This document shows, one piece after another, positions 4,282 through 47,988 of a DNA stretch of 64,000 nucleotides. The stretch is from Blautia parvula (GTDB lineage Bacteria > Bacillota > Clostridia > Lachnospirales > Lachnospiraceae). A model generated the notes under the pieces. The model worked only from the letters and a program-made list of their open reading frames with translations, did not search any database and was not told the DNA's origin. The stretch's first letter is position 1. Every line of letters begins with the position of its first letter. The stretch spans positions 2,388,001 through 2,452,000 of the forward strand of contig NZ_CP084061.1 of NCBI RefSeq assembly GCF_020215665.1, given 5' to 3'. The translations under genes were made by a program, and so were the position numbers.

Positions 4282-5064
4282 TCACTGGCAGACATAGGCG
4301 CCGTCCACAATCAGGTCGGTTCCGGTCGTATACGCGGAAGAATCCCCGGCAAGATATAAAACCGCCCCGATAAGTTCCTCAGGAGTCCCCATCCTGCCGT
4401 ATGGCATCATCCCTTTCCAGGCGTCCTTCAGCTCCTGGGGGGTGTCTACGGACATAGGCGTGGAGATGTATCCCGGACTTAAACTGTTCACCCGGATGCC
4501 ATAGGGAATCCATTCCAGGGCCAGGGACTTTGTCAGATGGATAACTCCCGCCTTCGATGCATTGTAGGAAGCCTGCCACTGAGGTATATTTACAATGGTC
4601 CCTGACATGGATGCCATGTTGATGATGCTGCCGTGTATCTTTTTCTGTACCATAAGGCGTGCAGCGCTCCGCGCCATAATGTACTCCCCGGTCAGATTCA
4701 CGTCAACCACCTGCCTGAACTCCTCTATGCTGGCCTCAAAGGTGCTTTTGTGAATGCAGATGCCGGCATTGTTAAACAATACATGAATACCGCCGCTTCT
4801 CTTTTCAATCTCCTCCACTGCCCGGTCCACACTCTTCTCATCGGTTACATCAGCCTTGATGTCATAGGCTTTATTGCCGTCCTCCAAAATGAGTTTCACC
4901 GTTTCCGCTCCTCCCGAACGGCTTATAACGACAACCTCGGCTCCCGCGCTGGCCAGCCCTCTGGCCACTACCTGTCCGATTCCCCTGTTTCCGCCTGTTA
5001 CAACAGCGGTCCTGCCTTCAAGTCCAAAAAGTTTGTCAAGATAACTTGCTGATTTTTCAGACAC
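4282..5064 (-). CDS. short-chain dehydrogenase/reductase (SDR)
   Basis: A classical 260-residue SDR. It has the NAD(P)-binding motif TGGNRGIG (about residues 23-30), NNAG (about 97-100), a Ser in NMASMSG and the catalytic YNASK (about 165-169). The ending GTDLIVDGAY is typical of sugar, polyol or keto-acid dehydrogenases. The substrate is not predictable; in a fucosidase operon a fucose or polyol dehydrogenase is reasonable. The start is GTG behind AAGGAGGG, and GTGTCTGA overlaps the stop of an alcohol dehydrogenase remnant. This preserves the junction of an ancestral operon in which the intact dehydrogenase was translationally coupled to this gene. Confidence 0.85.
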   Translation of the reverse strand: MSEKSASYLDKLFGLEGRTAVVTGGNRGIGQVVARGLASAGAEVVVISRSGGAETVKLILEDGNKAYDIKADVTDEKSVDRAVEEIEKRSGGIHVLFNNAGICIHKSTFEASIEEFRQVVDVNLTGEYIMARSAARLMVQKKIHGSIINMASMSGTIVNIPQWQASYNASKAGVIHLTKSLALEWIPYGIRVNSLSPGYISTPMSVDTPQELKDAWKGMMPYGRMGTPEELIGAVLYLAGDSSAYTTGTDLIVDGAYVCQ

Positions 5065-5268
5065 GGTTATATCCCTCCTTTAGTTCTGTGTAGATTTCTT
5101 CAATATCTGCGATTCTGGGGTTTGCCTGATAATCAGGCAGTTCATGTCCCCTTTCTGCTATTTTTCTAAGTATATCATATGCAACACCGAATTGGCGGAA
5201 ATTCAGCCACATTCCCATATCTTTCATTAGTTTCTCTATTTCTCCGCAGCACTCCGATGCAGCCCTGA
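5049..5268 (-). repeat. direct repeat copy A flanking the UroD-like gene
   Basis: About 220 bp that match 6286-6506 at roughly 89% identity by eye. It contains the last 70 codons of an iron-type alcohol dehydrogenase and the first codons of the SDR gene. The two copies are 1237 bp apart. Confidence 0.85.
5057..5268 (-). pseudogene. 3' fragment of an iron-containing alcohol dehydrogenase gene
   Basis: Read on the minus strand, this segment encodes about 70 residues (RAASECCGEIEKLMKDMGMW ... EGYNRV, then a stop) closely matching the C-terminus of the intact dehydrogenase encoded upstream at 6294. The frame is still open, and most differences are silent or conservative. It has no start and begins right after the stop of the UroD-like gene, so it is a leftover of a duplication or recombination and probably not translated. 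Its stop overlaps the SDR start. Confidence 0.85.
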
Positions 5269-5275
5269 AACCGAT

Positions 5276-6229
5276 TTATATACTTCCGTATTTATGCCAT
5301 GCTTCCAACATTGCCCTGTAATTCTCAATTGGTGTCTCAATCGCAACGGCATTGGAGTTGCCGAAGATAAAACCCGGATACTCCCTGCACTCCAAAAGAA
5401 TTCTCTTTGCCTCTTCATACACCTGGTCCGGCGTTGCAGTCAGCATTATTCCACAGTCCAGATTACCACAGAGTGTCACTCGATTTTCCATAAATTCCTG
5501 AACTCTCCTGATATCCATACCCGCAAGCGGATCAATTGCCTGAAGGCCATCCACACCTGAATTCCTAATATCCTCCAGCAGCAGATCAATGTTACCATCC
5601 GTATGTAAAATTGCCGGAACCCCTTGACTGTGCAAATAATCTGAAAATTTCCGCAAATATGGAAAATACCATCGCTGCTGCTGTTCACGATTGAAAAACG
5701 GTGCCCGATTGTCCGCTACATCAGATCCTGTATAAATTGCATCCGCACCTGCATCAATCAGACGTTTCGAGTTTTCCAAAAAGCTGTCATAAATCTTTTT
5801 GCACATCTCATCAATTACTTCCGGTTCATCAAACATCTGAAAACAGAATTCCTCGAATTCTTCACCAGAAGGCATTGCAATCACGCCGGCACAGGAACAT
5901 ACAACAGCAAAATCAGGTGCAAGCCTCCTAATATTCCTAACAAGTTGCACCCTATCCAAGTCCGGAAGTGTATAAAAACAATTCCAGGGATTGTCAGGGA
6001 TTGACACTGCCGAAAATCCCAGTTCTTCACCACACTTCACCAGGATTTCTGCATCCTTTTGCAGCGCACGGCTTCTTTCTGTCTCCGTCAGACTCAAATA
6101 CTCTTTTCCGGACACAAAATGTTCGCCTCCCACCTGATCCCAAATATGAAAATGCAACTCCCACAGAGGTATTTCCTTCTGTGCTTCCCCATGCCTCAGC
6201 ACTCTTAAAAAATTTTCTCTTCTGGACAA
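5276..6229 (-). CDS. uroporphyrinogen decarboxylase-fold (UroD/MtaA-like) protein
   Basis: A 317-residue member of the UroD superfamily, closer to the cobalamin- or folate-linked methyltransferases (MtaA, CmuA) than to heme-pathway HemE. Visible are the N-terminal MSRRENFLRVLRHGEAQKEIP, the central GADAIYTGSDVADNRAPFFN, HTDG (His209, Asp211) and CGNLDC (Cys254, Cys259). MtaA-type enzymes bind zinc through His-x-Cys and a later Cys; here the first Cys is Asp, so zinc binding is possible but altered. The start is TTG behind GGAGGA. It sits between two direct repeats in a fucosidase operon and looks like a late insertion. No corrinoid protein is nearby. The substrate is unknown. Confidence 0.75.
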   Translation of the reverse strand: MSRRENFLRVLRHGEAQKEIPLWELHFHIWDQVGGEHFVSGKEYLSLTETERSRALQKDAEILVKCGEELGFSAVSIPDNPWNCFYTLPDLDRVQLVRNIRRLAPDFAVVCSCAGVIAMPSGEEFEEFCFQMFDEPEVIDEMCKKIYDSFLENSKRLIDAGADAIYTGSDVADNRAPFFNREQQQRWYFPYLRKFSDYLHSQGVPAILHTDGNIDLLLEDIRNSGVDGLQAIDPLAGMDIRRVQEFMENRVTLCGNLDCGIMLTATPDQVYEEAKRILLECREYPGFIFGNSNAVAIETPIENYRAMLEAWHKYGSI

Positions 6230-6285
6230 CGTTTCTGCTCCTCCATTTCCTTTGTCGAAATTTTCTTATTTGCCTTCTAAACCTT

Positions 6286-6506
6286 CTGATTTTTCAGACA
6301 CGGTCATATCCTTCACTCAGCTCTCTGTATATTTCTTCAATATCCGCGATTCTGGGGTTCGCCTGATAATCAGGCAATTCATGTCCCCTGTCTGCTATTC
6401 TTCTAAGCATCTCATATTCAACACCGAATTGGCGGAAATTCAGCCACATTCCGATATCTTTCATCAGTTTTTCTATTTCTTCGCAGCACTCCGATGCGGC
6501 CCTGGA
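6286..6506 (-). repeat. direct repeat copy B flanking the UroD-like gene
   Basis: The partner of 5049-5268. It is the true 3' end of the alcohol dehydrogenase gene followed by a vestigial SDR start: GTG TCT GAA AAA TCA, which then diverges and stops after 11 codons. Confidence 0.85.
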
Positions 6507-7463
6507 ATCAGAGACATCTTTCAGGGCAGGATTGAAAATGCGTCCCACCTCTGCAAATTTTTTCTCTGCTGCCAGACAGGTGAACCGTAAAAAGGACGGA
6601 TATGTCAAGGCCAGGGATTCCCCATGCATGATCTGAGGGCAATGTCCGCTGATCGTCATACCCACACCGTGGGGAAGTGTCACGCCTGCGTTGGCAATAG
6701 CCAGGCCTCCGCAGGTATCTGCCCAGGCCATCCCTTCCCTGGCTTCCATATCTTCACCATTCTTTACCGCCCTTCTCAGATATTGGGCAGCATATTTTAT
6801 CCCTTCAAGTGCGATCATGTCCGTATACGGAGAAGCTTTTACATTGATATAGCTCTCAAAGCAGTGACAAAAAGCGTCAAAACCGGTGGATGCAGTTATA
6901 TGGGCAGGCATGGATACTGCAAGCTCCGGGTCGATCAGCGCAACACGGGGATAAATCAGGTTGTTAAAAATAGCACTCTTAGTACAGGTCTTTGTCTCCG
7001 TCATGACTGCAACCTGCGTGACCTGTGACCCTGTCCCCGCTGTTGTGGGAACTGCGATCACAGGCAGCGTTGCCTGCGGCTGCGGATTTTTAAAAAACAG
7101 ATAATCCCACGCCGTGCCTTCGTTTGCGGCTGCCACGGCAATGGCTTTTGCCGTATCCATGGCAGAACCACCCCCAAGACCGATCACAACCTGGCAGCCT
7201 TCTTTTTCGGCAATAGCAGTTCCCTCCTCCACACATTTTGTAGTGGGATTCTGCGATACTTTGTCAAAATGAAAAACGGTAAGGCCGCTGTTTCGCAGGC
7301 TTTCTGTAATCCTGTCATATAACTTTTCCCTGGAAGACTTTTTTTTGCCGGTAACCAAAAGGATTTTATTTCCAAGGCCTGCTGCCAGACCGGGAAGCTC
7401 TTTAATACAGCCGCTTCCGAAAATAATTTTTGTTGTCTGTTCATATTCAAACTTTTTCTTCAT
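6294..7463 (-). CDS. iron-containing alcohol dehydrogenase
   Basis: A group III metal-dependent alcohol dehydrogenase of about 389 residues, related to FucO (lactaldehyde reductase), butanol and 1,3-propanediol dehydrogenases. It shows the NAD-binding GLGGGSAMDTAKA, the family motif VPTTAGTGSQVT, and the metal-ligand region with Asp in STGFDAFCHCFE, then His in CHC, LPHGVG and HGESLAL. It would reduce an aldehyde with NADH; in a fucosidase operon lactaldehyde is an obvious guess only. I prefer the ATG at 7463, preceded by GGGGGG, over the GTG at 7481 that overlaps the fucosidase stop. A diverged copy of its 3' end lies at 5057-5268. Confidence 0.88.
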   Translation of the reverse strand: MKKKFEYEQTTKIIFGSGCIKELPGLAAGLGNKILLVTGKKKSSREKLYDRITESLRNSGLTVFHFDKVSQNPTTKCVEEGTAIAEKEGCQVVIGLGGGSAMDTAKAIAVAAANEGTAWDYLFFKNPQPQATLPVIAVPTTAGTGSQVTQVAVMTETKTCTKSAIFNNLIYPRVALIDPELAVSMPAHITASTGFDAFCHCFESYINVKASPYTDMIALEGIKYAAQYLRRAVKNGEDMEAREGMAWADTCGGLAIANAGVTLPHGVGMTISGHCPQIMHGESLALTYPSFLRFTCLAAEKKFAEVGRIFNPALKDVSDSRAASECCEEIEKLMKDIGMWLNFRQFGVEYEMLRRIADRGHELPDYQANPRIADIEEIYRELSEGYDRV

Positions 7464-7477
7464 ACGCACGCCCCCCG

Positions 7478-8965
7478 TCACATATAAATATTCTTTCTCT
7501 TGATTTTCAGGACAGTAGCAATGTTGTTTTTCCTGGCCTTTGCCGTGTCGATAAGAAGAACATCACCTTCTGCACTCCATGTAAGCGGCTGTCCGTCACC
7601 TAAAACGGTTATGCTTTCAATCTCCTCCTTATAGACCATTGGAAGTATATGATGCAGCGCCACCTGGTCTCCTATTCTTCCCAGCGCAGATGCATAGATA
7701 TACTCATCTCTCATGGTATACCGGATGTCCCTCGGTGTATATTCCACTTCATCCATCTCACTAAAGGCACCGGAACCGGTCATTTTAGTAGGACCCTCCT
7801 CTGCTGTACGCCACGGTGTGGTATCATAGACTGCCTCTCCGTTTTCCTCCAGCCATGCCCCCATTTCCAGCAGTATTTTCCTGGCTTCTTCCGGGATGGT
7901 TCCATCCGGCTTTGGCCCCACGTTCAAAAGCAGATATCCATTTTTGCTTACATTGTCCAGCAGATAATGGATCAGAGATTTGGCTGATTTATATTCTGCA
8001 TCCTGCATATATCCCCAGGCTTCTCCCGCGTCCACTGTAGTGTCCGTGATCCAGTCATGGTATGTAGCTTCCGCGAACCTTCCCTGTTCCAGGTCAATCA
8101 GACCCGTGCCCACAGGCAGGTGGTTCCATTTGTAGGAGACAACTGTCTTCTGACCATTTTTCTCCGCCATATCCCTGTAGTAAGTGAGAAATTTTCTCTG
8201 ATAATAATCATTGATAAAAGCCAAACCGAAATCAAACCATATGTAATCCGGGCTGTATGCATCTATGACTTCTTTCAGCTTAATAAACCATTTCTCATGA
8301 AACGCCGCGCTCGGAAGGTCCTGTGCGATCCACTGCCTGTCTATAGCGCCGTCCATGGTATCGGACCAGCGGATCGGTTCCGGAAGATATCTTTTGTCAG
8401 ATCCCCAGTCCATATTATGCGCCTCGCCGTACAGACCTGCGTATCTTGGGTCTGAGGTGTCATATTCCTTTACCCAGTGAGGATAGAATTTCCAATTTTC
8501 CGCATGGTGGAAAGCTGTCATGAAGTGCATACCCTGCTTCCGCACTGCTTTTTCCAGTTCTCCTACCACATCCGTCTTAGGCCCCATGGCTGCTGCATTC
8601 CATTCATTGACACGGCTGTCCCACATGCTGAATCCATCGTGGTGTTCCGCCACAGGACCTGCAAATCTCGCACCTGCTTTTTTAAATAATTCTGCCCATT
8701 CCGCAGCGTCAAATTTTTCCCCGGTAAACATGGGGATCAAATCTTTATATCCCGTCTTGGAAGGGTGTCCGAAATGCTTGCAGTGATAGGCAAACTGGTC
8801 GGTCCCCTCCTGATACATCTTATACGGATACCAGGAAACATTTGGACCAAATGCCGGCACACTGTAAACACCCCAGTGTGTGTAAATCCCGAATTTTGCT
8901 TTTTTCATCCAGTCCGGTGTCCGGTAATCCGTCAGTTCTTTCCAATCCTTTACTTTTATCCCCAT
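7478..8965 (-). CDS. alpha-L-fucosidase, GH29
   Basis: Cleaves terminal alpha-L-fucose from glycans. The 495-residue protein has the GH29 features FGIYTHWGVYSVPAFG (residues 25-40), EHHDGF (about 107-112), the nucleophile Asp245 in WFDFG, and YLLLNVGPKPDGTIPEEA near the end of the catalytic domain. A small C-terminal beta domain follows. No signal peptide is present, so it probably acts in the cytoplasm on small fucosylated oligosaccharides taken up by the adjacent ABC transporter. I chose the ATG at 8965 because AAGGAG lies 9 nt before it; an in-frame GTG exists at 8995. It lies 16 bp after the permease gene. Confidence 0.92.
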   Translation of the reverse strand: MGIKVKDWKELTDYRTPDWMKKAKFGIYTHWGVYSVPAFGPNVSWYPYKMYQEGTDQFAYHCKHFGHPSKTGYKDLIPMFTGEKFDAAEWAELFKKAGARFAGPVAEHHDGFSMWDSRVNEWNAAAMGPKTDVVGELEKAVRKQGMHFMTAFHHAENWKFYPHWVKEYDTSDPRYAGLYGEAHNMDWGSDKRYLPEPIRWSDTMDGAIDRQWIAQDLPSAAFHEKWFIKLKEVIDAYSPDYIWFDFGLAFINDYYQRKFLTYYRDMAEKNGQKTVVSYKWNHLPVGTGLIDLEQGRFAEATYHDWITDTTVDAGEAWGYMQDAEYKSAKSLIHYLLDNVSKNGYLLLNVGPKPDGTIPEEARKILLEMGAWLEENGEAVYDTTPWRTAEEGPTKMTGSGAFSEMDEVEYTPRDIRYTMRDEYIYASALGRIGDQVALHHILPMVYKEEIESITVLGDGQPLTWSAEGDVLLIDTAKARKNNIATVLKIKRKNIYM

Positions 8966-8981
8966 AATTTTCTTCTCCTTT

Positions 8982-9815
8982 TTATTTGTTAGCACCGCTT
9001 GTCAGCCCTTTCACTACATTTTCCTGCAGTACCAGATACATGGTAAGAGGCGGCAGAATGGCTATGAAGATAGCTGCCATCAATGCGCCGTAATCACTTT
9101 TCCTGGCTCCCACAAAATTAAGCAGACCCACCGAGATGGTTCTGAGTTCCGCCTTACCTATAAACACCATGGAGACCAGAAGGTCATTCCATGTGTACAT
9201 AAATACAAATATACCAACTGTTGCGATCGCAGGCTTCACAAGGGGCAGAACAATCCTTGTAAATACCTTATATATACTGCATCCGTCAATGATTGCGGCT
9301 TCCTCCAGGGATGTGGGAAGGCTGTTCATGGAGCCTGTTATGATAAAGGTAGCCAGCGGCATATGGGACGCTGTAAAAAGCAGAATCAAGATCAGATAAT
9401 TATCTCTGATATCAAAATTATTGATCGCCCAGGCCAAAGGTACAATGATACTCTGGATTGGCACCATCATTCCCATGACAAAATAAACTCTGACAGCACC
9501 CTGTCCCTTAAAACGCAGGCGGGAGATTGCAAAAGAAACCATACTTGCAGCCAGAGCCGTAAGTACCAGTGTCACAATCGCCAGAAACATGCTGTTTAAA
9601 AACTGCCTTCCTATATTTCCTATTTCAATGGCTGTCTTATAATTTTCAAAATGAAATTCCGAAGGAAATTTGAATGGTGAAGTAAAAATTTCTGTATTTG
9701 TCTTAATAGATGAAATTATAACGAAATACAGCGGATAAATGAAAATAAAAAGAAAGAAAAAAGAAACCAGGTATAATATTATTTTTTTCGTTATTTTTCT
9801 AGTATGATCGTTCAT
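8982..9815 (-). CDS. carbohydrate ABC transporter permease, MalG type
   Basis: Inner half of a sugar importer, 277 residues with about six membrane segments. The EAA loop EEAAIIDGCSIYKVFTRIVLPLVKPA (about residues 178-203), which contacts the ATPase, is intact. The start ATG follows AAGGAGGA. It pairs with the permease gene 11 bp upstream and the lipoprotein encoded before that. No ATPase is encoded in the operon, as is usual for this family in Firmicutes, where a shared MsmK/MsiK-type ATPase drives several importers. Confidence 0.9.
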   Translation of the reverse strand: MNDHTRKITKKIILYLVSFFFLFIFIYPLYFVIISSIKTNTEIFTSPFKFPSEFHFENYKTAIEIGNIGRQFLNSMFLAIVTLVLTALAASMVSFAISRLRFKGQGAVRVYFVMGMMVPIQSIIVPLAWAINNFDIRDNYLILILLFTASHMPLATFIITGSMNSLPTSLEEAAIIDGCSIYKVFTRIVLPLVKPAIATVGIFVFMYTWNDLLVSMVFIGKAELRTISVGLLNFVGARKSDYGALMAAIFIAILPPLTMYLVLQENVVKGLTSGANK

Positions 9816-9826
9816 TTTCTTCCTCC

Positions 9827-10711
9827 TTAATACTCCAGCCGTTCCCGTTTTGTAATGCGGAGACTTATGACAGTAAATATAACGCTCAAAATAAAGATAT
9901 AAACACCGATAACAGATGCCTTTCCGAAGTCATTGTACCGGAAAGCCTCTTTGTATAAAAGTGTACTGGGCACATCGGTCAGACCGTTTGGACCTCCCTC
10001 TGTCATAACATAGACCAGATCAAACGTTTTCAATACTGCGGTTACGATCACAACGATGCTGGAAATGATCGATTCCCATATCATTGGAATGATAATATGG
10101 AACACTTTTTTTAATCCCACCGCTCCGTCCAGTTTTGCTGCCTCCACCACATCGTCAGGAATCCCTGAAATAGCAGCGTAACTGACAGTCATATGAAACC
10201 CGATGCCGCACCATGTATTCACCAGAATAATAGTTGTCATGGCCGTATTCTTATCTACCAGCCAGCTTTTCACCAGACTGTCAAGACCAATTCCCTGAAG
10301 CATGGTATTCAGAACTCCTGTGGGCATCAGAATAAAGTACCAAAGAAGACCAATAACGGTTGTGGAAAGTACCTGAGGTACAAAATACGCAAACTTAAAA
10401 AAACGATATCCCCTAAACCGCTCACTGAGCATAACCGCCAGCAGAAGCCCAATGGGAAGCTGCGTACACAATGTCAGCACCATGAACCACATAATATTTT
10501 TGATGGAATGCCAGAACATGGCATCTGTAATAACCGCCTTAAAATTACTGAATCCCACAAATACCATGGGGACATTTTTGATTCCATTCCACTTAAAAAA
10601 GGACATGACCAGGGAACCGCCGATAGGAACCATTAAAAGTACTGTATATAAAAGGAATCCCGGCATCAGAAAACATAACACTGCCTTTTTATTCCTTCTT
10701 ATTCTCTCCAT
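9827..10711 (-). CDS. carbohydrate ABC transporter permease, MalF type
   Basis: A 294-residue partner permease with about six membrane helices. The EAA motif VVEAAKLDGAVGLKKVFHIIIPMI is at about residues 190-213. The ATG follows AAAGGAGGT. Its gene is separated from the binding-protein gene by 67 bp that contain a strong hairpin (10735-10763), likely to reduce permease expression relative to the binding protein. The substrate is probably a fucosylated oligosaccharide, inferred from the downstream fucosidase. Confidence 0.9.
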   Translation of the reverse strand: MERIRRNKKAVLCFLMPGFLLYTVLLMVPIGGSLVMSFFKWNGIKNVPMVFVGFSNFKAVITDAMFWHSIKNIMWFMVLTLCTQLPIGLLLAVMLSERFRGYRFFKFAYFVPQVLSTTVIGLLWYFILMPTGVLNTMLQGIGLDSLVKSWLVDKNTAMTTIILVNTWCGIGFHMTVSYAAISGIPDDVVEAAKLDGAVGLKKVFHIIIPMIWESIISSIVVIVTAVLKTFDLVYVMTEGGPNGLTDVPSTLLYKEAFRYNDFGKASVIGVYIFILSVIFTVISLRITKRERLEY

Positions 10712-10734
10712 TGCTGTACCTCCTTTTCTGAAAA

Positions 10735-10763
10735 GGCCGCTGCAGAGCCAAACTGCAGCGGCC
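10735..10763 (-). terminator. intra-operon hairpin between binding-protein and permease genes
   Basis: Perfect 11-bp arms GGCCGCTGCAG / CTGCAGCGGCC with a 7-nt loop, followed on the minus strand by TTTTC. The T run is short, so it is probably a partial terminator or an mRNA 3'-end stabiliser. Confidence 0.75.
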
Positions 10764-10778
10764 TGATGTTACTTCCGG

Positions 10779-12179
10779 TTACTGGCCTGAACCAGCCGCT
10801 TCCAACCGGCTTTGAATCTGTTCTGCCGCTTCATCTGCTGTCATTCCGGTAAGTGCGCCGATAAATGCTTCTCCCACAATATCCTCCAATACTGCCACTG
10901 TGTCGTAAGCCCAGGCATCACTGCCCCATACCTTAACATCATTTTCCTTTATCGTGAGCAGATCAGCAAGAAGAGGACTCATCTTGTCAGTTTCCAGTTC
11001 AACATCATTTCTGACTGGAATGTTGCCGCAGTCATAGGCATATCTCTGCTGGGTCTCCTTGCTGGCAAACATGCTGGCAAGCTCCCACACATATTTGAGT
11101 TTCTCCGGTTCATCCTTCAGGTGACCGCCCAATTCCAACTGTGACGGATATGCAATATCATTGTCCTTAAATTCTTCCCTGTCAGTGAAATACGGCATGC
11201 GGAATACACCTACATTGTCCTCCATGTCTTTAAGTTCTGCGATCCTCCAGCTTCCGTCAAATGACATGGCTGTCTGTCCGCTGACAAACATAGCTTTTTC
11301 TGTCTCATAATCAAGGCCCAGATAATCTTCCCCGAAGATCCCTCTGTCTGCCAGGTCCTGTATAAACGCAATCGTTTCCACTACATCTTCATCTGTCCAT
11401 TTTGCTTTTCTTCCGCCCAGTTCCTTTGCCTTTTCCACTCCGCACATCTTGTAGAGAAGTCCTGTCTGGATATGTACTACCCGCCATGCATTGGTAGCAC
11501 CTACAACCCATGGCGTGACCCCTGACTCTTTAAGTTTATCGCATACATCATAGAATTCATCCCAGGTCTCCGGTGCTTTTTCAATCCCTGCTTTCTGGAA
11601 CAGTTCTTTGTTGTAATAGAAGACTTCCATCTGATTGTTAATGGGCAGTGCGTATGTCCCCTCTGTTCCGACAGACGACAGTTCCATCATATCAAGAAGT
11701 GTGGAATCCACATTGTCTTTGATATCCGGTGTCTCTGCAATTAAATCGGTCAGGTCCAGAAAAACTCCCGTGTCTGCATATTCCTTCATGATACTGATGC
11801 CGGGCCACTGGATAATGTCCGCCACATTGCCGGATGCAACATCTGTTTTGAACTGGTTCGTAAAGCTGTTGCTGTCATTTGTACTCTCATCCTGGATAGT
11901 GATATCCGGGTATTTTTCCTGAAATTCCTGAAGGACCTCCTCTTTCAGCTTAGTTCCGCTGTCAGCGCCTGACATTCTTGTAAGAAGACGGATAGTGATC
12001 TCCTCCCCGCTTCCCTCTTTTTCAGAATCTGTCTTCGCCTCATCTGTCTTTGTCTCTGTCTTACTTTCAGCATCCTGGCCCCCGTCCGCGCCTGTATTGC
12101 CGCCGCAGGCAGAGAGTCCTGCTGATGCCATAACTGCTGCCAAAAGCACTGCGATTTTCTTTCTCATTCCTTTACTCAT
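10779..12179 (-). CDS. extracellular sugar-binding lipoprotein of ABC transporter
   Basis: A family 1 solute-binding protein of about 466 residues. The signal peptide has a lipobox ending ASAGLSAC at about residue 25, followed by a Gly/Asp/Glu/Lys/Thr-rich linker, so it is anchored outside the membrane. The mature part has typical segments such as DIIQWPGI, YALPINNQMEVFYYNKELFQKAGIEKAPETWDE and AMSFDGSWRIAEL. I chose the ATG at 12179 because GGAGGT sits 7 nt before it; an upstream ATG in the same frame overlaps that site. The gene starts 51 bp after the ROK repressor gene, and both are probably on one transcript. Confidence 0.9.
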   Translation of the reverse strand: MSKGMRKKIAVLLAAVMASAGLSACGGNTGADGGQDAESKTETKTDEAKTDSEKEGSGEEITIRLLTRMSGADSGTKLKEEVLQEFQEKYPDITIQDESTNDSNSFTNQFKTDVASGNVADIIQWPGISIMKEYADTGVFLDLTDLIAETPDIKDNVDSTLLDMMELSSVGTEGTYALPINNQMEVFYYNKELFQKAGIEKAPETWDEFYDVCDKLKESGVTPWVVGATNAWRVVHIQTGLLYKMCGVEKAKELGGRKAKWTDEDVVETIAFIQDLADRGIFGEDYLGLDYETEKAMFVSGQTAMSFDGSWRIAELKDMEDNVGVFRMPYFTDREEFKDNDIAYPSQLELGGHLKDEPEKLKYVWELASMFASKETQQRYAYDCGNIPVRNDVELETDKMSPLLADLLTIKENDVKVWGSDAWAYDTVAVLEDIVGEAFIGALTGMTADEAAEQIQSRLEAAGSGQ

Positions 12180-12230
12180 AATTAATACCTCCATAATTTT
12201 TGCTGTACCCTTAGGACATTTTTTCCGGAT

Positions 12231-13433
12231 CTAATTCCCATATTTTATAAACTTCTTCAGCACCAGGGATGCGGATCCGACTGCGGTGCCGTTCTCACCC
12301 ATCTGAGAAATAACCAATTTCACCTGCCTTCCTGCAAATTTCATCTGCCTCTCGCGAAGCACTTCCTTTACTTTCTTTAAAAAAATATCACCTGCGTTGG
12401 TCAGACCCCCAAATAAAATGATCAGGTCTGGGTCCAGCAGATTAATATAATTTGCCAGTCCGATTCCAATATACTGCATGGCCCGTTCTGTTATCTGTAT
12501 TGCCAGACGATCCCCCAGACGCGCCGCTTCAAATACTGTTTTCGCTTCAATACGATTGATATCTTCATTAACCAGTTCCATTATTTTCGTTGCATTGCCT
12601 TCCAATACAGCGATCTTGGCATCTCTGGCGATAGCATTTCCCGACGCGATAGCCTCCAGACAGCCAAGGTTGCCGCAGTTACATTTTGGCCCGTTTTTCT
12701 CCAGGATGATATGGCCAATCTCTCCGCTGCTTCCTGAACTTCCCCTGTAAAACTCCCCTTCCCGCATGATAGCAGAACCAATTCCGTGTCCCAGATTTAC
12801 CACCAGAAAATTTCTGGAATCCACACCTGCCCCGAAATAATATTCTCCCATAGCCAGTGCCCGGTTTGCGTTCTCAATTGTAATGTCCATCTTAAACCGT
12901 TCACGGATGGGTGTTAACATGTCAACATTCTCCCATTTAAAATCAGGGGAAAACAGAACCTTTCCGCTTTTCTCATCCAGAATTCCCGGCATGCCGATTC
13001 CCATACCTAATATCTGCTTCCTGGACAGTCCGCTCTCGCGTATCACATTCTCTATCACCTGAATCAGCCTGGATATCCATACCTCAGGCACAGCTGTGCC
13101 TCCAGTCTCCATGATTTCACGGATAAATACCTCCCCGGCAAGATTCATCATCAGCACATTGGTTTTACTGCGCCCTACCCCTACTCCGATAATATATTTC
13201 GAGTCTGGTACCAGCTCCAATAACTCCGGGCGCTTTCCCCCGCTGGATTCACCCTTTCCCACATCCTGCACAAACTGTTTATGAGAAAATTCCTCTGTTA
13301 TTTTCATGACTGTTGGAATACTAAGGCCGATAGTCCGCGCAATCTCCGCGCGGCTGATAGGCCCTTTTCTTCTTATCAGATCAAAAACCATACTCCGGTT
13401 CATCTGCGCCATTGCAAATTTATCATATTTCAC
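12231..13433 (-). CDS. ROK family transcriptional regulator (NagC/XylR type)
   Basis: A sugar-responsive repressor of 400 residues. The N-terminal winged HTH contains ISRAEIARTIGLSIPTVMKITEEF (about 26-49). The ROK domain follows, with a sugar-kinase-like NLGHGIGSA and the zinc motif CNCGNLGCLEAIASG (about 250-265). Start GTG behind AAGGAG. It is the first gene of the fucosidase transport operon and is preceded by a consensus promoter with an A/T-rich repeat directly downstream of the -10, which suggests autorepression relieved by the transported sugar. It is clearly paralogous to the next ROK protein. Confidence 0.9.
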   Translation of the reverse strand: MKYDKFAMAQMNRSMVFDLIRRKGPISRAEIARTIGLSIPTVMKITEEFSHKQFVQDVGKGESSGGKRPELLELVPDSKYIIGVGVGRSKTNVLMMNLAGEVFIREIMETGGTAVPEVWISRLIQVIENVIRESGLSRKQILGMGIGMPGILDEKSGKVLFSPDFKWENVDMLTPIRERFKMDITIENANRALAMGEYYFGAGVDSRNFLVVNLGHGIGSAIMREGEFYRGSSGSSGEIGHIILEKNGPKCNCGNLGCLEAIASGNAIARDAKIAVLEGNATKIMELVNEDINRIEAKTVFEAARLGDRLAIQITERAMQYIGIGLANYINLLDPDLIILFGGLTNAGDIFLKKVKEVLRERQMKFAGRQVKLVISQMGENGTAVGSASLVLKKFIKYGN

Positions 13434-38355: not shown

Positions 38356-40536
38356 TTACATAATTTTCGTACTTTCCAGTTTTTCCATAAATGCATGGTT
38401 CAGACGAATCACCGGCTTTCTGAGTACCAGCCCCAAAAGCAGGGATGCTGCCAGGAAAAGTCCCAGTCTGCCCATCTCCGTCCAATAGGTATTTCCGTAT
38501 AACCCGCCGATACATTCCCGCATGGCAGCCATGCTGTGCGTAAAGGGCAAAAACAGATATACTTTCTTAAAGAACGCAGGCGCCACCTCTATGGGGAAGG
38601 TTCCGCCGGAGCCTGCCACCTGGATGACGAGGAGCACCACACATATGGCTTTGCCGATATCCCCAAAAGAAACCGTAAGGGTATAGATCAGGTTCACAAA
38701 TGCCACACTTGCCATCCATCCGGCCAGCACGAACAAAAACGGATGCTCACACTGGATTCCAAGATAATACAGGTCTCCCAGACAGATCAGTCCGCTCTGC
38801 AGAAGTCCCATGAGGAAAAACAGAATATACCTGCCCAGATACATCTGGTATTCCTTCACATTTTTCAGGCTGTCCGTGGTCTTTTTGGAGACGTTTACCT
38901 TCATCATTGCTACCAGCACGATTCCGCCCACCCAGATTGCCAGGGAGGAATAGAAAGGCGCCATGGAGGAGCCGTAATTCTCCACGGAATACACAGCCGT
39001 GCGGTTGAGTTTCACAGGCGCTGCCAACACCGAACTTAAAGATGCCGGGTCGCTGCCGATCAGATTTTTCAGCACATCCGAATCCTGGCTGTCCACAGCG
39101 TCCCCCAGTGTTTTTGACACGCCCTCAATCTTATCCGCAGCCTCTGTCAGAAGGGAAGCTGAGGTGTCCAGCGCTTTTCTCACTTCTGCCAGGTCCGAGG
39201 AGGCACTGTCTGAGATATTGCCAAGACCGGAAATGCTGTCATCCAGTTTTTCCATCACATTTGCCACAGATGTGCCTGTATCACCCAGGGTTCCGAAAAG
39301 TTCCCCGAGCTCTGCCTGCAGGTTTTCCTCATAGTCACTCTGTACAGACGATATCTGCTGTACGCTGTCATCCGCCATCTGCTGAAGCTGGCCATGGTAT
39401 GTGCCTATATCCGCAGCCGTATCTGTGATTTTTCCTGCCGTCTCATCCAGTTTATCTTTTAATGCCTGTTGTCCTGCGGTCAGTTCCTCCATATTGCTGA
39501 TCAGGGGATTCAGAAGCTCTCCTCCCACGGGAAGGGCATCCCGGACAGCGGCCAGGCTGTCCCTGAAATCCGTATATTTGTCAATCACACTCTGGGTCAC
39601 ATCAGACAGTCCCAAAAGGCTGGATGCTGCATTCTGGGAATTATCCTCCATGGAGGCAAAGGTTTCGTCGATCACCTGGGAGACAGCCTGGTAATAGGAA
39701 CCACTGTCCTCAAGTACCTGGCTGATTACCTCTGTGGTTCCGGAAAGGCTGCTGCTCAGGCCCTCCATGCCCTCCCCGGTATCCTTAAGTACATCCAGTC
39801 CGGCCTCTGTACTCTCTCCGGACTGCTTCAGCAGGGAAGATGTGGTATCCAAAATCCCCTGCATGGAATCCATCATATCCGAAAATGCTGTCATGGTGGA
39901 AGCCAGCCCTCTCAGATCATCCGCGCTGTTCTTTGTATTTCCTGCAAGATTTCCGATCATGGTCCTTGTGCCGTCCTGATTCAAATAGGAGGACAGGGAA
40001 TTCATCACATCCAGTCCAATCTGGCTGATCGTCTTTGTAAAGATTTCGTCAATCTGCGCCCGTATGGAGTCCGCCCCTTTATCCGTGACCTTGGGTGCAA
40101 TGGCATTCTCCTTCTGGTTGGAATAATAGATCAGACTGGAGTGTGTCACATCATCGGAAAAGACTGTCATCATATCTTTGCTGAATGCTTTCGGTATGAC
40201 GATCGCCGCATAGTATTTTCCGGACCTCACACCTTCCACTGCTTTCTTTTTGTCAGTGAAGACCCAGTCCATCTGCTCATTTGCCCTGAGGCTTGAGATG
40301 ACTGTATCTCCCATATTGATCTTGACAGGAACAATGCTGCTCTCATATCCCTCATCCGCGTTTGCCACAGCCACCCGGATCCCCCCTGTATTGCTGTAGG
40401 GGTCCCAGCTTGCAGCTATGTTAAACCACGCATAGAGGGCAGGCACAACCGTGAGTCCCAGAATGACGATCAGCGCAATGACATTGTTTTTAATATGGCT
40501 TACATCTGCCCGGAAAATTTTCCATATATTTTTCAT
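38356..40536 (-). CDS. YhgE/Pip-family membrane protein
   Basis: A 726-residue member of the phage infection protein (Pip/YhgE) family, related in its C-terminal half to ABC-2 permeases. One N-terminal membrane helix (about 18-38, with VIALIVILGLTVVPALYAWFNI) is followed by a long extracellular region of about 480 residues rich in Ser, Asp and Gln heptads, then about five or six membrane helices from residue 535 onward. In Lactococcus, Pip is needed for phage c2 entry; cellular roles in the envelope are less clear. Its start overlaps the upstream paralog by ATGA. Confidence 0.88.
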   Translation of the reverse strand: MKNIWKIFRADVSHIKNNVIALIVILGLTVVPALYAWFNIAASWDPYSNTGGIRVAVANADEGYESSIVPVKINMGDTVISSLRANEQMDWVFTDKKKAVEGVRSGKYYAAIVIPKAFSKDMMTVFSDDVTHSSLIYYSNQKENAIAPKVTDKGADSIRAQIDEIFTKTISQIGLDVMNSLSSYLNQDGTRTMIGNLAGNTKNSADDLRGLASTMTAFSDMMDSMQGILDTTSSLLKQSGESTEAGLDVLKDTGEGMEGLSSSLSGTTEVISQVLEDSGSYYQAVSQVIDETFASMEDNSQNAASSLLGLSDVTQSVIDKYTDFRDSLAAVRDALPVGGELLNPLISNMEELTAGQQALKDKLDETAGKITDTAADIGTYHGQLQQMADDSVQQISSVQSDYEENLQAELGELFGTLGDTGTSVANVMEKLDDSISGLGNISDSASSDLAEVRKALDTSASLLTEAADKIEGVSKTLGDAVDSQDSDVLKNLIGSDPASLSSVLAAPVKLNRTAVYSVENYGSSMAPFYSSLAIWVGGIVLVAMMKVNVSKKTTDSLKNVKEYQMYLGRYILFFLMGLLQSGLICLGDLYYLGIQCEHPFLFVLAGWMASVAFVNLIYTLTVSFGDIGKAICVVLLVIQVAGSGGTFPIEVAPAFFKKVYLFLPFTHSMAAMRECIGGLYGNTYWTEMGRLGLFLAASLLLGLVLRKPVIRLNHAFMEKLESTKIM

Positions 40537-43067
40537 TTGCTGCTGCCCTCCTTCTTACTTTCCAGTACCTGATGCAGTTCCTCCCTGCTCATCTTACTGA
40601 GCCGCATCTGCCGGTTCAGGCTCTCATGAATATATTCCAGACAGATGAGATAAAGCGCAATGCCTATGATGGAGGCGATCCAGAGTACCAGGAAGACCAT
40701 CTTGGAATCAATGCTGAACATAAGCACCAGGAAAATGAGAGGGATCACAAGGATAGCCAAAAATCCCCGTCTGATTCTCTTCTCATAGCCGATCTCAAAT
40801 TCTGCCGCTTTTTCATACAGCTGCGCCTTAAACTCCTCCTGCCCTGCAAGCATACGCACCACAGAAGACAGGCGTATCCTCTCATTTGGTATCCCGTTTT
40901 CTTCACAGAGCATCAGGTCCGTCTGTGCCAGTTTCTTGTCAAAAAGCAGATTTAAATTCAGCAGCAGAGGCCGCACAGCAACGCCGATCAAAAGTGCTAT
41001 GGGAATGTAAACGGTCAGGCACAGCATATCTTCCAGATAATGGTACCGATAAATACCTGCCACTGCTTCCCGCATGGCATTTATGCCGTAGGTAAAGGGC
41101 AGCAGAGGATGAAGCGCCTGGAAAAATCCCGGGGTCATCTCTATGGGATATGTCCCTGCAGAGCCGGGTATCTGTACAATGACCAAGATCACACAGATTG
41201 CTTTTCCGATATGTTTGAAGGTAATGGACAGTGCATAAATAATATTTACATACACAAAAGAAGCAAATACCCCGGCAAATAAAAATGCTGCCGGGTCTGC
41301 GCACTGTATTTTAAGCAGATATAAATCTCCCAGGCATATGATCAGGGATTGTACGACTCCGAAAGCCACAAAGAGCAGCCATCTCCCGAAATATCCCTGT
41401 ACAGCCGAAAATTTCCCCACTTTTTCTTTATCTGCCTCCAGCTTGAAAATGGCGATCAGAACAATACCTCCCACCCAGATTGCCAGGTTCGTATAAAAGG
41501 GCGCTAAAGCAGAGCCATAGTTTTCAATACTATAGACTTCCTTTGTCTCCACCTCCACCGGCGAGGACATGAAATCTGCCACAGATTCCCCGTCAATGCC
41601 GGAAAGATCCATAAGTACTTCCATGGATTTGGAATTTTCCAGTGCCTTTAAATCTGTCTGAGCGTTTTCCAGTATGTTCTGCACACTGTCAAGGGAGTCT
41701 CCCGTGCTCACCAGGACTGCCTGTATGTCATCCAGGCTTGCGGCAAGCTCGTCCAGAACAGATTTTACCTGTTCCGCAGACGGCTCCACCCCGTCCAGAA
41801 GGCCGGAAAGCCTGCCCGACAGTCCGGAAAAAGCATCCAGGTTTCCGCTGATCCCCGGCAGAATCTGCCGGTCAAAGGTATCCCTGGAACTAAGGAACTG
41901 CTCCCCTGCCTCCTGAAGGATGGAATCCACCTGGGTCAGGGCACCGGATGCTGTCTCCACAGAACTGCCGATACTGTCATTCCCCTGTCTGAGACTTGAA
42001 ACGACCTGTCTCTGTCCCTCCAGCTCAGCCTCCAGGGAGGCGATCACAGACGCCATGGCATCTGTTGGGTATGCTTCCTGAAAGGATACAAGGTTATCAA
42101 GGACACTTTCTCCCAGGGAAACCGCCTGATCCGCTCTGGTGATCATCCCGTCCACCTGGCCGTTTATTTCCAGGATCTTTCCGTTGATCTCACCGATCGC
42201 GGATTTTGACGCAGCGTTTATATCCGCCAGCGCAGTCTGCCCCTCCGAGAGAGCGGATGACATCCCTGCGGAAAATTCAGACGCTGCTGTCCTTGCGTGT
42301 TCCAGGATTTCACTGCTCTTGTCAATGGCACGGCTGCCCTCCCCGGCTGCCTCTTTCAGCGCGTCCAGCGTTCCTTGGGTGTCCTCTATGGTCTCATTAG
42401 AACTGTCCGCAGTGATCCCAAATTTTTCCAGTCCATTCTGGTATTCCCTGATATTTTCCGATACGCGGCTGATCTTTTCAAGCAGACTGTCCTGGGAACC
42501 GGAAAGTTTCTCCGACAGGGAGCCTGTGGATTTTTCTATTATGTCAGCCACTGCTTTTGACGCGGTGGCAGTGAAGGTGCTGTTGATCTCCTTCTCCACA
42601 GTCTCTGCCCCGGTATCTGTTATTTTAGGGGCAATGGCATTTTTCTTCTCGTTGATGTAATATGTAAATTCCGGCCTGTGGAAGTCTCCGCTTACAATGC
42701 TCAGCATATCCCGGCTGAAGGTTTCCGGAATGACAATGGCTGCATAATATTCTCCTGATCTTACGCCCTCCACTGCCTTCTTCTCATCTGTAAAAACCCA
42801 GCCCAGCGCATCGTTCTCTTTCAGATTGCTGACAATCTCACCGCCTGCATCCAGTCTCCCTGTCAGCTCATTCTCTGCGCCTTTATCACTGTTTGCCACT
42901 GCCACCTTGATATCCCCTGTACTTGCATAAGGGTCAAAATTGGCTGCAATGTTGAACCACGCGTACAGTGACGGAATGATGCAGATCCCTACTGCCACGA
43001 TCACTGCTACGGGGTTGCGCAGCAGCCTTCTGCAGTCTCTGATGAATATCTGCCATACCTTCTTCAT
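40533..43067 (-). CDS. YhgE/Pip-family membrane protein, longer paralog
   Basis: An 844-residue paralog of the next protein with the same plan: N-terminal helix VAVIVAVGICIIPSLYAWFNI, a coiled-coil-rich extracellular region of about 520 residues, and a cluster of membrane helices near residues 560-730. It differs in a C-terminal extension of about 100 residues that holds two more membrane helices and a charged cytoplasmic tail. The start ATG follows AGGAGG. The tandem pair is the head of a run of same-strand genes leading into the Bce-like regulators. Confidence 0.88.
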   Translation of the reverse strand: MKKVWQIFIRDCRRLLRNPVAVIVAVGICIIPSLYAWFNIAANFDPYASTGDIKVAVANSDKGAENELTGRLDAGGEIVSNLKENDALGWVFTDEKKAVEGVRSGEYYAAIVIPETFSRDMLSIVSGDFHRPEFTYYINEKKNAIAPKITDTGAETVEKEINSTFTATASKAVADIIEKSTGSLSEKLSGSQDSLLEKISRVSENIREYQNGLEKFGITADSSNETIEDTQGTLDALKEAAGEGSRAIDKSSEILEHARTAASEFSAGMSSALSEGQTALADINAASKSAIGEINGKILEINGQVDGMITRADQAVSLGESVLDNLVSFQEAYPTDAMASVIASLEAELEGQRQVVSSLRQGNDSIGSSVETASGALTQVDSILQEAGEQFLSSRDTFDRQILPGISGNLDAFSGLSGRLSGLLDGVEPSAEQVKSVLDELAASLDDIQAVLVSTGDSLDSVQNILENAQTDLKALENSKSMEVLMDLSGIDGESVADFMSSPVEVETKEVYSIENYGSALAPFYTNLAIWVGGIVLIAIFKLEADKEKVGKFSAVQGYFGRWLLFVAFGVVQSLIICLGDLYLLKIQCADPAAFLFAGVFASFVYVNIIYALSITFKHIGKAICVILVIVQIPGSAGTYPIEMTPGFFQALHPLLPFTYGINAMREAVAGIYRYHYLEDMLCLTVYIPIALLIGVAVRPLLLNLNLLFDKKLAQTDLMLCEENGIPNERIRLSSVVRMLAGQEEFKAQLYEKAAEFEIGYEKRIRRGFLAILVIPLIFLVLMFSIDSKMVFLVLWIASIIGIALYLICLEYIHESLNRQMRLSKMSREELHQVLESKKEGSSK

Positions 43068-46998: not shown

Positions 46999-47988
46999 TC
47001 AGCAGTTTTTCATAAAATCAATTTCCTGTCTCAGTTGTGCTTCCGTCATATGGATTGCCGCCGGCTGCGGATAAGCTTTGTACATAAAGCCTCCTTTTTC
47101 CGTACTCAGAGCCTGTACCATATCCCTGATATAGCTGCCCATCTCCTCCTTTGTCATCTGCACACTATGCTGGATATCCACAGGGCACAGGAAACATATC
47201 TTACCGTTCCATTTGCCCAGCAGTTCCAAGCCCATATTCATCTGCTGGTCCATCTGAATCACGTCCACACCAAATTCAACAAAAACGTCCAGAAGGTATG
47301 TAATATGCCCGCAGGAGTGAAGGAAATATTTCATTCCTTTTTTATGGATGTAATCCACAAAACTCTTCATCCTGTCATAATAATACTCTTCCCACATTCC
47401 GTATGACATCATAGGCCCTCTCTGCAGCCCCCAGTCCTCCCATGCCATAACAGCATCCATACCGGCCTCAGCATAACCGTCCACCATCTGTTTTCCCACT
47501 TCATAGAGACAGTCGATCAATCGGTTTATATTTTCTTCCTCTTCATAATAATCCACCATGCAGTTGGCATATCCCCGCAGATTGATTATTTCTTCCATCA
47601 TCATGCCAAGCCCCCCTACCAGAAACTTATCCGGATAAAGCTGCCTGAGCCTTTTGGCCTCTGTATATCTGCTGGGCGCTGTGAAATCCGGCAGATGATT
47701 TTTCCAGTTCTCGAAATTATCCCAGGACTCCAGAGGCGGATTCTTTACCTCCCCCATAGTCTCTCCAAAGGTCTCCATCTTATATCCCCACTGGCTGTAT
47801 CCTTCCGCAACAGGTACAAATTCAGGGTCATAGCTGGATACAATGTAAATGTCCGCATCGTACTCCTTCAATATATCCTTTGTGATTGCCTGATTCAAAG
47901 CGTCTGAATCAAAATCCAGACAGATGGGAATTCTGTCAGGTCCTTTTCCCTCTATGGCATTCAGTACACATTCTTTTGATGTCTGCAT
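46999..47988 (-). CDS. UroD/MtaA-like methyltransferase-family protein
   Basis: A 329-residue UroD-superfamily protein, opening MQTSKECVLNAIEGKGPDRIPICLDFD. It has MtaA-like metal-ligand candidates: His224 and Cys226 in FLHSCGH, and Cys265/Cys268 in ICFLCPVD. Those match the His-x-Cys...Cys zinc site of corrinoid:CoM or CmuA-type methyltransferases, unlike the first UroD-like protein in this window, which has Asp in the first Cys position. It is the last gene of a sugar-uptake operon. Start ATG has AAAGGAG upstream. No corrinoid protein lies nearby, and the substrate is unknown. Confidence 0.82.
   Translation of the reverse strand: MQTSKECVLNAIEGKGPDRIPICLDFDSDALNQAITKDILKEYDADIYIVSSYDPEFVPVAEGYSQWGYKMETFGETMGEVKNPPLESWDNFENWKNHLPDFTAPSRYTEAKRLRQLYPDKFLVGGLGMMMEEIINLRGYANCMVDYYEEEENINRLIDCLYEVGKQMVDGYAEAGMDAVMAWEDWGLQRGPMMSYGMWEEYYYDRMKSFVDYIHKKGMKYFLHSCGHITYLLDVFVEFGVDVIQMDQQMNMGLELLGKWNGKICFLCPVDIQHSVQMTKEEMGSYIRDMVQALSTEKGGFMYKAYPQPAAIHMTEAQLRQEIDFMKNC

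Follow-up and report, generated by a model that had tools for sequence, protein, structure and literature searches.

A UroD-family gene between two diverged copies of an alcohol dehydrogenase/SDR junction in a Blautia parvula fucosidase operon

A complete UroD-family gene in Blautia parvula lies between two diverged direct copies of the junction of an iron-containing alcohol dehydrogenase (ADH) gene and an SDR oxidoreductase gene, and in a relative of the same genus, G008, these two genes are joined directly at a single, clean junction. That the UroD gene was gained in the window's own lineage (the window being the whole 64,000-nucleotide stretch that was analysed, positions 2,388,001 to 2,452,000 of contig NZ_CP084061.1) is well supported, precise loss in G008 being the less parsimonious history. 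The gene was probably inserted at the ADH/SDR junction by homologous recombination with related, junction-bearing DNA; the import, the geometry of the crossover and the choice of which copy is native are what we infer.

Anatomy of the repeated junction

The genes concerned form a row on the minus strand that runs, in order of transcription, from ROK-type regulators through a solute-binding protein, two ABC permeases, an alpha-L-fucosidase, the ADH, the UroD gene and the SDR to a MerR-like gene, where fucosidase, ADH, UroD and SDR are named from Pfam and the other members from reading their translations. The genes for the two permeases, the solute-binding protein and a ROK-type regulator (8982 to 13433) are collinear in G008 and mostly so in L059, a more distant genome. 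Downstream of them stand the fucosidase (7478 to 8995; Alpha_L_fucos, 6.7e-94) and an intact ADH of 395 residues, counted from the listed GTG (6294 to 7481; Fe-ADH, 7.2e-55; ADH_Fe_C, 1.5e-40), which shares 87% amino acid identity with the ADH of G008. The UroD gene (5276 to 6229; URO-D, 7e-30) encodes 317 residues from a TTG start behind GGAGGAG, and it is followed by an intact SDR of 260 residues (4282 to 5064; adh_short_C2, 4.4e-63) with 95% amino acid identity to its G008 counterpart.

Pairwise alignment places the direct repeats at 5043 to 5270 (copy A) and 6280 to 6507 (copy B), each of 228 nucleotides, with 204 of 228 positions identical (89%), no gaps, a start-to-start distance of 1237 and a longest identical tract of 34 nucleotides. 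Each copy, on the minus strand, comprises the 3' end of the ADH gene and the start of the SDR gene: copy A holds a 68-codon ADH remnant and the true SDR start (89% identical to G008 over 219 nucleotides), and copy B holds the intact ADH 3' end and the first SDR codons (88% over 215 nucleotides). In the direction of transcription the UroD gene starts 50 bases past copy B and ends 5 bases short of copy A. The ADH stop and SDR start overlap in GTGTCTGA in copy A, in copy B and in G008. Behind the intact ADH, the sequence and its translation give a vestigial SDR start of 11 codons and a stop, MSEKSEGLEGK (6266 to 6301, minus strand), whose last five residues match the GLEGR/GLEGK motif of the SDR past a net gap of seven codons in an alignment made by reading, so that SDR homology extends slightly past the reported repeat. 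The initial annotation had described much of this by eye, and its repeats of about 89% identity at 5049 to 5268 and 6286 to 6506, the UroD-like gene between them, the overlap of the dehydrogenase stop with the SDR GTG in each copy, the 1237-bp spacing and the 11-codon vestige all hold in the alignment, with slightly wider repeat limits.

Searched as DNA at E <= 0.001, the whole own genome yields two copies of the junction only (E 1.3e-115 and 4.4e-83). One further repeat pair of at least 80 nucleotides occurs in the window, an 84-nucleotide direct repeat of 71% identity (38899 to 38982 against 41442 to 41525), perhaps in paralogous genes. We also note that the ADH remnant (5043 to 5278) consists of 68 open codons in frame with the UroD gene, beyond the UroD TAA stop.

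The Shine-Dalgarno sequence of the SDR gene, AAGGAGG, lies ahead of the GTG inside ADH codons for Lys-Glu-Gly, and is intact in copy A and in G008 and weakened to GTGAAGGAT in copy B. Since this signal sits within the last ADH codons, the duplicated ADH tail preserves the SDR start region. Judged from these start signals, the ADH remnant would supply the intact SDR with its usual start region, and it may have been kept by selection for that region.

The uninterrupted locus and the history of the two copies

When copy B with the adjoining spacer was used as query against 20 genomes of the genus, two matched, G000 and G008, the latter in the repeat part only. The row in G008 has the same order (ROK, solute-binding protein, two ABC genes, fucosidase, ADH, SDR), a single junction copy and no UroD gene at that place, and it is the one relative in which an intact junction could be compared. 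The order of ADH then SDR that the initial annotation took to be ancestral, and the UroD-free comparison locus that it called for, are thus both found in the clean fucosidase-ADH-SDR row of G008. At L059 (ADH 72%) the row begins with a ROK gene, includes one small additional gene and extends as far as the ADH, and neither an SDR nor a UroD gene is present at the locus within the 8.5 kb examined. Most of the row is absent from G009, where fragments of ROK2 and ROK1 are fused to residues 115 to 260 of the SDR (L022:10245-11143). A separate arrangement in G001 (L098:1806-7002) comprises an ADH relative of 51% identity followed by two UroD-family genes, a 421-residue protein that matches no Pfam family at 1e-8, and a B12-binding protein; ADH-UroD neighbours thus exist elsewhere in the genus.

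Under the reading that we favour, the recipient would have been a fucosidase-ABC transporter operon, which a complete UroD-family gene entered at the ADH/SDR junction, and the donor segment would have carried its own diverged ADH/SDR junction adjoining the UroD gene. A circle could have integrated by a single crossover of the Campbell type, or a linear piece could have entered through homology at one end and a non-homologous join at the other, and in the outcome two junction copies would stay. Copy A, beside the SDR and still with the SDR ribosome-binding site, would be native at least in its 3' part, and copy B, with the full-length ADH end and the SDR vestige, would be foreign at least in its 3' part.

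A less probable history, but one to be taken seriously, is an early tandem duplication of ADH and SDR in situ, after which a UroD gene took the place of most of the first SDR and most of the second ADH, and the remnants diverged in place. Over the 68 ADH codons, copies A and B differ at 21 of 204 sites, copy A and G008 at 23 and copy B and G008 at 25. These counts leave A and B marginally the closest pair, as in-situ duplication would have it, but a divergence near the level of G008 indicates that the copies did not arise by a fresh duplication, and divergence so near that between species leaves scant room for one that postdates the split. Polarisation by L059, an outgroup that itself differs at about one third of sites, likewise leans towards duplication in situ, with 7 of 12 sites placing A with B, 3 placing A with G008 and 2 placing B with G008. 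Nucleotide likelihood also slightly prefers A with B, although none of the three groupings is rejected by the AU test. When the same 68 codons are compared as protein, on the other hand, the tree prefers A with G008, and here the AU test rejects both alternatives (p 0.019 for A with B and 0.018 for the other), whereas by the KH and SH tests on the same data they are not rejected (p 0.066). On this short segment the nucleotide and protein trees conflict, and the import reading is weakened by the KH and SH results and by the outgroup-polarised sites. In-situ duplication would in addition require both a duplication and an insertion-deletion.

Other marks of an imported ADH were sought along the row. 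Raised synonymous divergence was rejected as such a mark, dS against G008 being 0.79 and inside the range of 0.72-1.0 for the row from ROK1 to SDR. The dN of the ADH, 0.067, is the highest in that row, the MerR-like gene beyond it reaching 0.100, and its ratio of window-G008 to outgroup protein distance, 0.46, is the highest of five genes (0.18-0.39 in the others). A crossover point inside the repeat was likewise rejected, permutation over split points giving p 0.15; a midpoint split of the 30 informative sites gave a Fisher p of 0.026, with the split chosen after the sites were seen. The proposal of the initial annotation that the second junction arrived with the UroD gene from related DNA therefore stands in part: the divergence fits it better than a recent duplication, and between import and an old duplication in situ the trees conflict. 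From these comparisons an imported junction seems to us likelier than an old in-situ duplicate, short of proof.

It is improbable that the common ancestor already had the UroD gene and both junctions and that recombination between the repeats then removed the segment from G008. Such a loss would restore a clean junction and yield the arrangement of G008, in an operon that is evidently labile, as the deletion in G009 joining ROK fragments to the SDR from residue 115 onward illustrates. It requires both a gain and a loss, however, and the G008 junction is no clear B-then-A chimera; at L059, moreover, the row up to the ADH contains no UroD gene, although the SDR is missing there too.

The inserted protein and the search for its source

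The UroD protein matches the UroD superfamily model PF01208 over residues 122 to 314 at 104.7 bits, against a gathering score of 23.9. It is not assigned as the uroporphyrinogen decarboxylase HemE (45.3 bits against an NCBIfam cut-off of 302.95), nor as one of the methylcobamide:CoM methyltransferases MtaA and MtbA (best model 65.9 bits against a cut-off of 244). MtaA and MtbA have HxC...C zinc ligands, and on these too the assignment to MtaA/MtbA was rejected: at the positions aligned with two MtaA cysteines, which read HICGN and PGCGI in chain 4ay7, the protein reads HTDGN and GNSNA. In an alignment of the protein with 12 of its 13 UroD-like matches (a 151-residue fragment was excluded), HTDG followed by N or D, together with a later SN pair, is present in nine of the 12 relatives, and HSCGN or HNCGN in the remaining three.

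Gene neighbourhoods were scanned at seven of the 14 places outside the own locus that a search at E 1e-24 had returned, covering selected neighbours in 3.5 to 6 kb of flanking sequence. A glycosidase gene was found near the UroD relative at five of these seven loci, a frequency for which the background was not controlled, the Pfam families being GH29, GH38, GH43, GH3 and GH4 (loci L100, L101, L103, L104 and L105) and the relatives having the HTDGN motif. AraC-type and transporter-like genes stand near the relative at L102, and neither these nor a glycosidase at L099. The relatives with this motif possibly form a carbohydrate-linked UroD group, and one might guess that the inserted protein handles sugars released by the fucosidase. 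A described function for this UroD-like group was not found, and at the level of titles and the openings of abstracts we recognised no paper that deals with the locus or with UroD genes of glycosidase operons.

The search for the origin of the gene extended from its nearest relatives to the phylum. At E 1e-5 the protein has 12 matches in G008 (the best 28% identical over part of its length, E 8e-14) and 17 in its own genome, itself included (next best 28% over part, E 7e-14); as the best others are partial matches of 28%, neither an ortholog in G008 nor a parent copy in the own genome was found. A second, distant match lies in the window itself at 47224 to 47673 on the minus strand, with 23% identity. 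Among 397 genomes sampled from the family, the own genome was the sole match at E 1e-40, none of the other 396 matching. Eight of 299 genomes, again with the own genome included, matched at E 1e-24, identity being 26-32% at the 14 places outside the own locus, and 31 of 398 genomes of a phylum sample, the own among them, did so at E 1e-20, the best-scoring other at 30%. Pattern scans gave 23 matches in a collection of 84,980 species, with no UroD relative among them, and none for the UroD gene in viral contigs. A mobile carrier was considered and rejected, since the six plasmid records and one phage record returned were partial matches of about 21-27% identity. Neither a close relative of the UroD gene nor a donor for the gene or its junction was found in the genomes and collections searched, which consist of sampled genomes and pattern scans and may omit records very near the window. 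Foreign composition was also rejected, GC and GC3 not being distinctive: the GC3 of the UroD gene, 0.421, is the lowest of ten genes compared but barely under that of an ABC permease (0.428), and so is no mark of foreignness.

Precedents, loss and significance

Homology-facilitated illegitimate recombination or Campbell-type integration would explain homology flanking imported DNA on both sides, although at the UroD locus neither donor nor intermediate has been seen. As in insertions with a duplicated target, direct repeats are found at both ends of the gene, and the orthologous site in G008, the one relative compared, has a single repeat and no gene. A report on Arabidopsis describes transposed genes flanked by direct repeats derived from the target, for which integration of circles was proposed (Woodhouse et al. 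2010, PMC2869330). That system shares with the UroD locus single genes between genic direct repeats and the presence of the repeat sequence at the orthologous site of a sister species; it differs in being a plant genome with parent sites known for some of the genes, where none was found for UroD, and in that the repeat at the UroD locus is an operon junction (PMC2869330).

In Salmonella Typhimurium, wzy lies between identical 113-bp intergenic direct repeats, and its deletion was demonstrated experimentally and reported to be reversible (PMC12074656). The likeness is a short one-gene segment that recombination between its flanking direct repeats would delete, and the difference is that the repeats of the UroD locus are 89% identical, coding and known from sequence alone (PMC12074656). 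That the UroD repeats are an attachment-like pair of an excising and re-integrating unit such as wzy, which a single gene flanked by direct repeats would suit, is highly improbable, because the wzy repeats as described are identical (PMC12074656), the UroD gene fills nearly all of the space between its repeats and leaves no room for a recombinase gene, and the repeat here is coding sequence present once in G008. By repeat identity, too, a reversibly excising cassette of the wzy type was rejected. A crossover between the repeats, by which the gene may be reversibly lost according to the initial annotation, would nevertheless be predicted to delete 1237 bp and leave an ADH-SDR junction like that of G008; with a longest identical tract of 34 nucleotides, such crossovers may be rare.

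The locus is an ordinary gain of an operon gene that has left a neat footprint. This clear single-gene footprint indicates that a catabolic operon can acquire a gene and leave the next one in the row unbroken, and insertion with a copy of the junction would spare the downstream gene because its ribosome-binding site sits in the last codons of the gene upstream. It is a doubtful extension that operons in these bacteria gain single genes via circles or segments carrying a junction copy, which would leave the downstream gene unsilenced and provide a route for later loss. If the repeats do recombine, presence of the UroD gene would vary among strains, and could be tracked.
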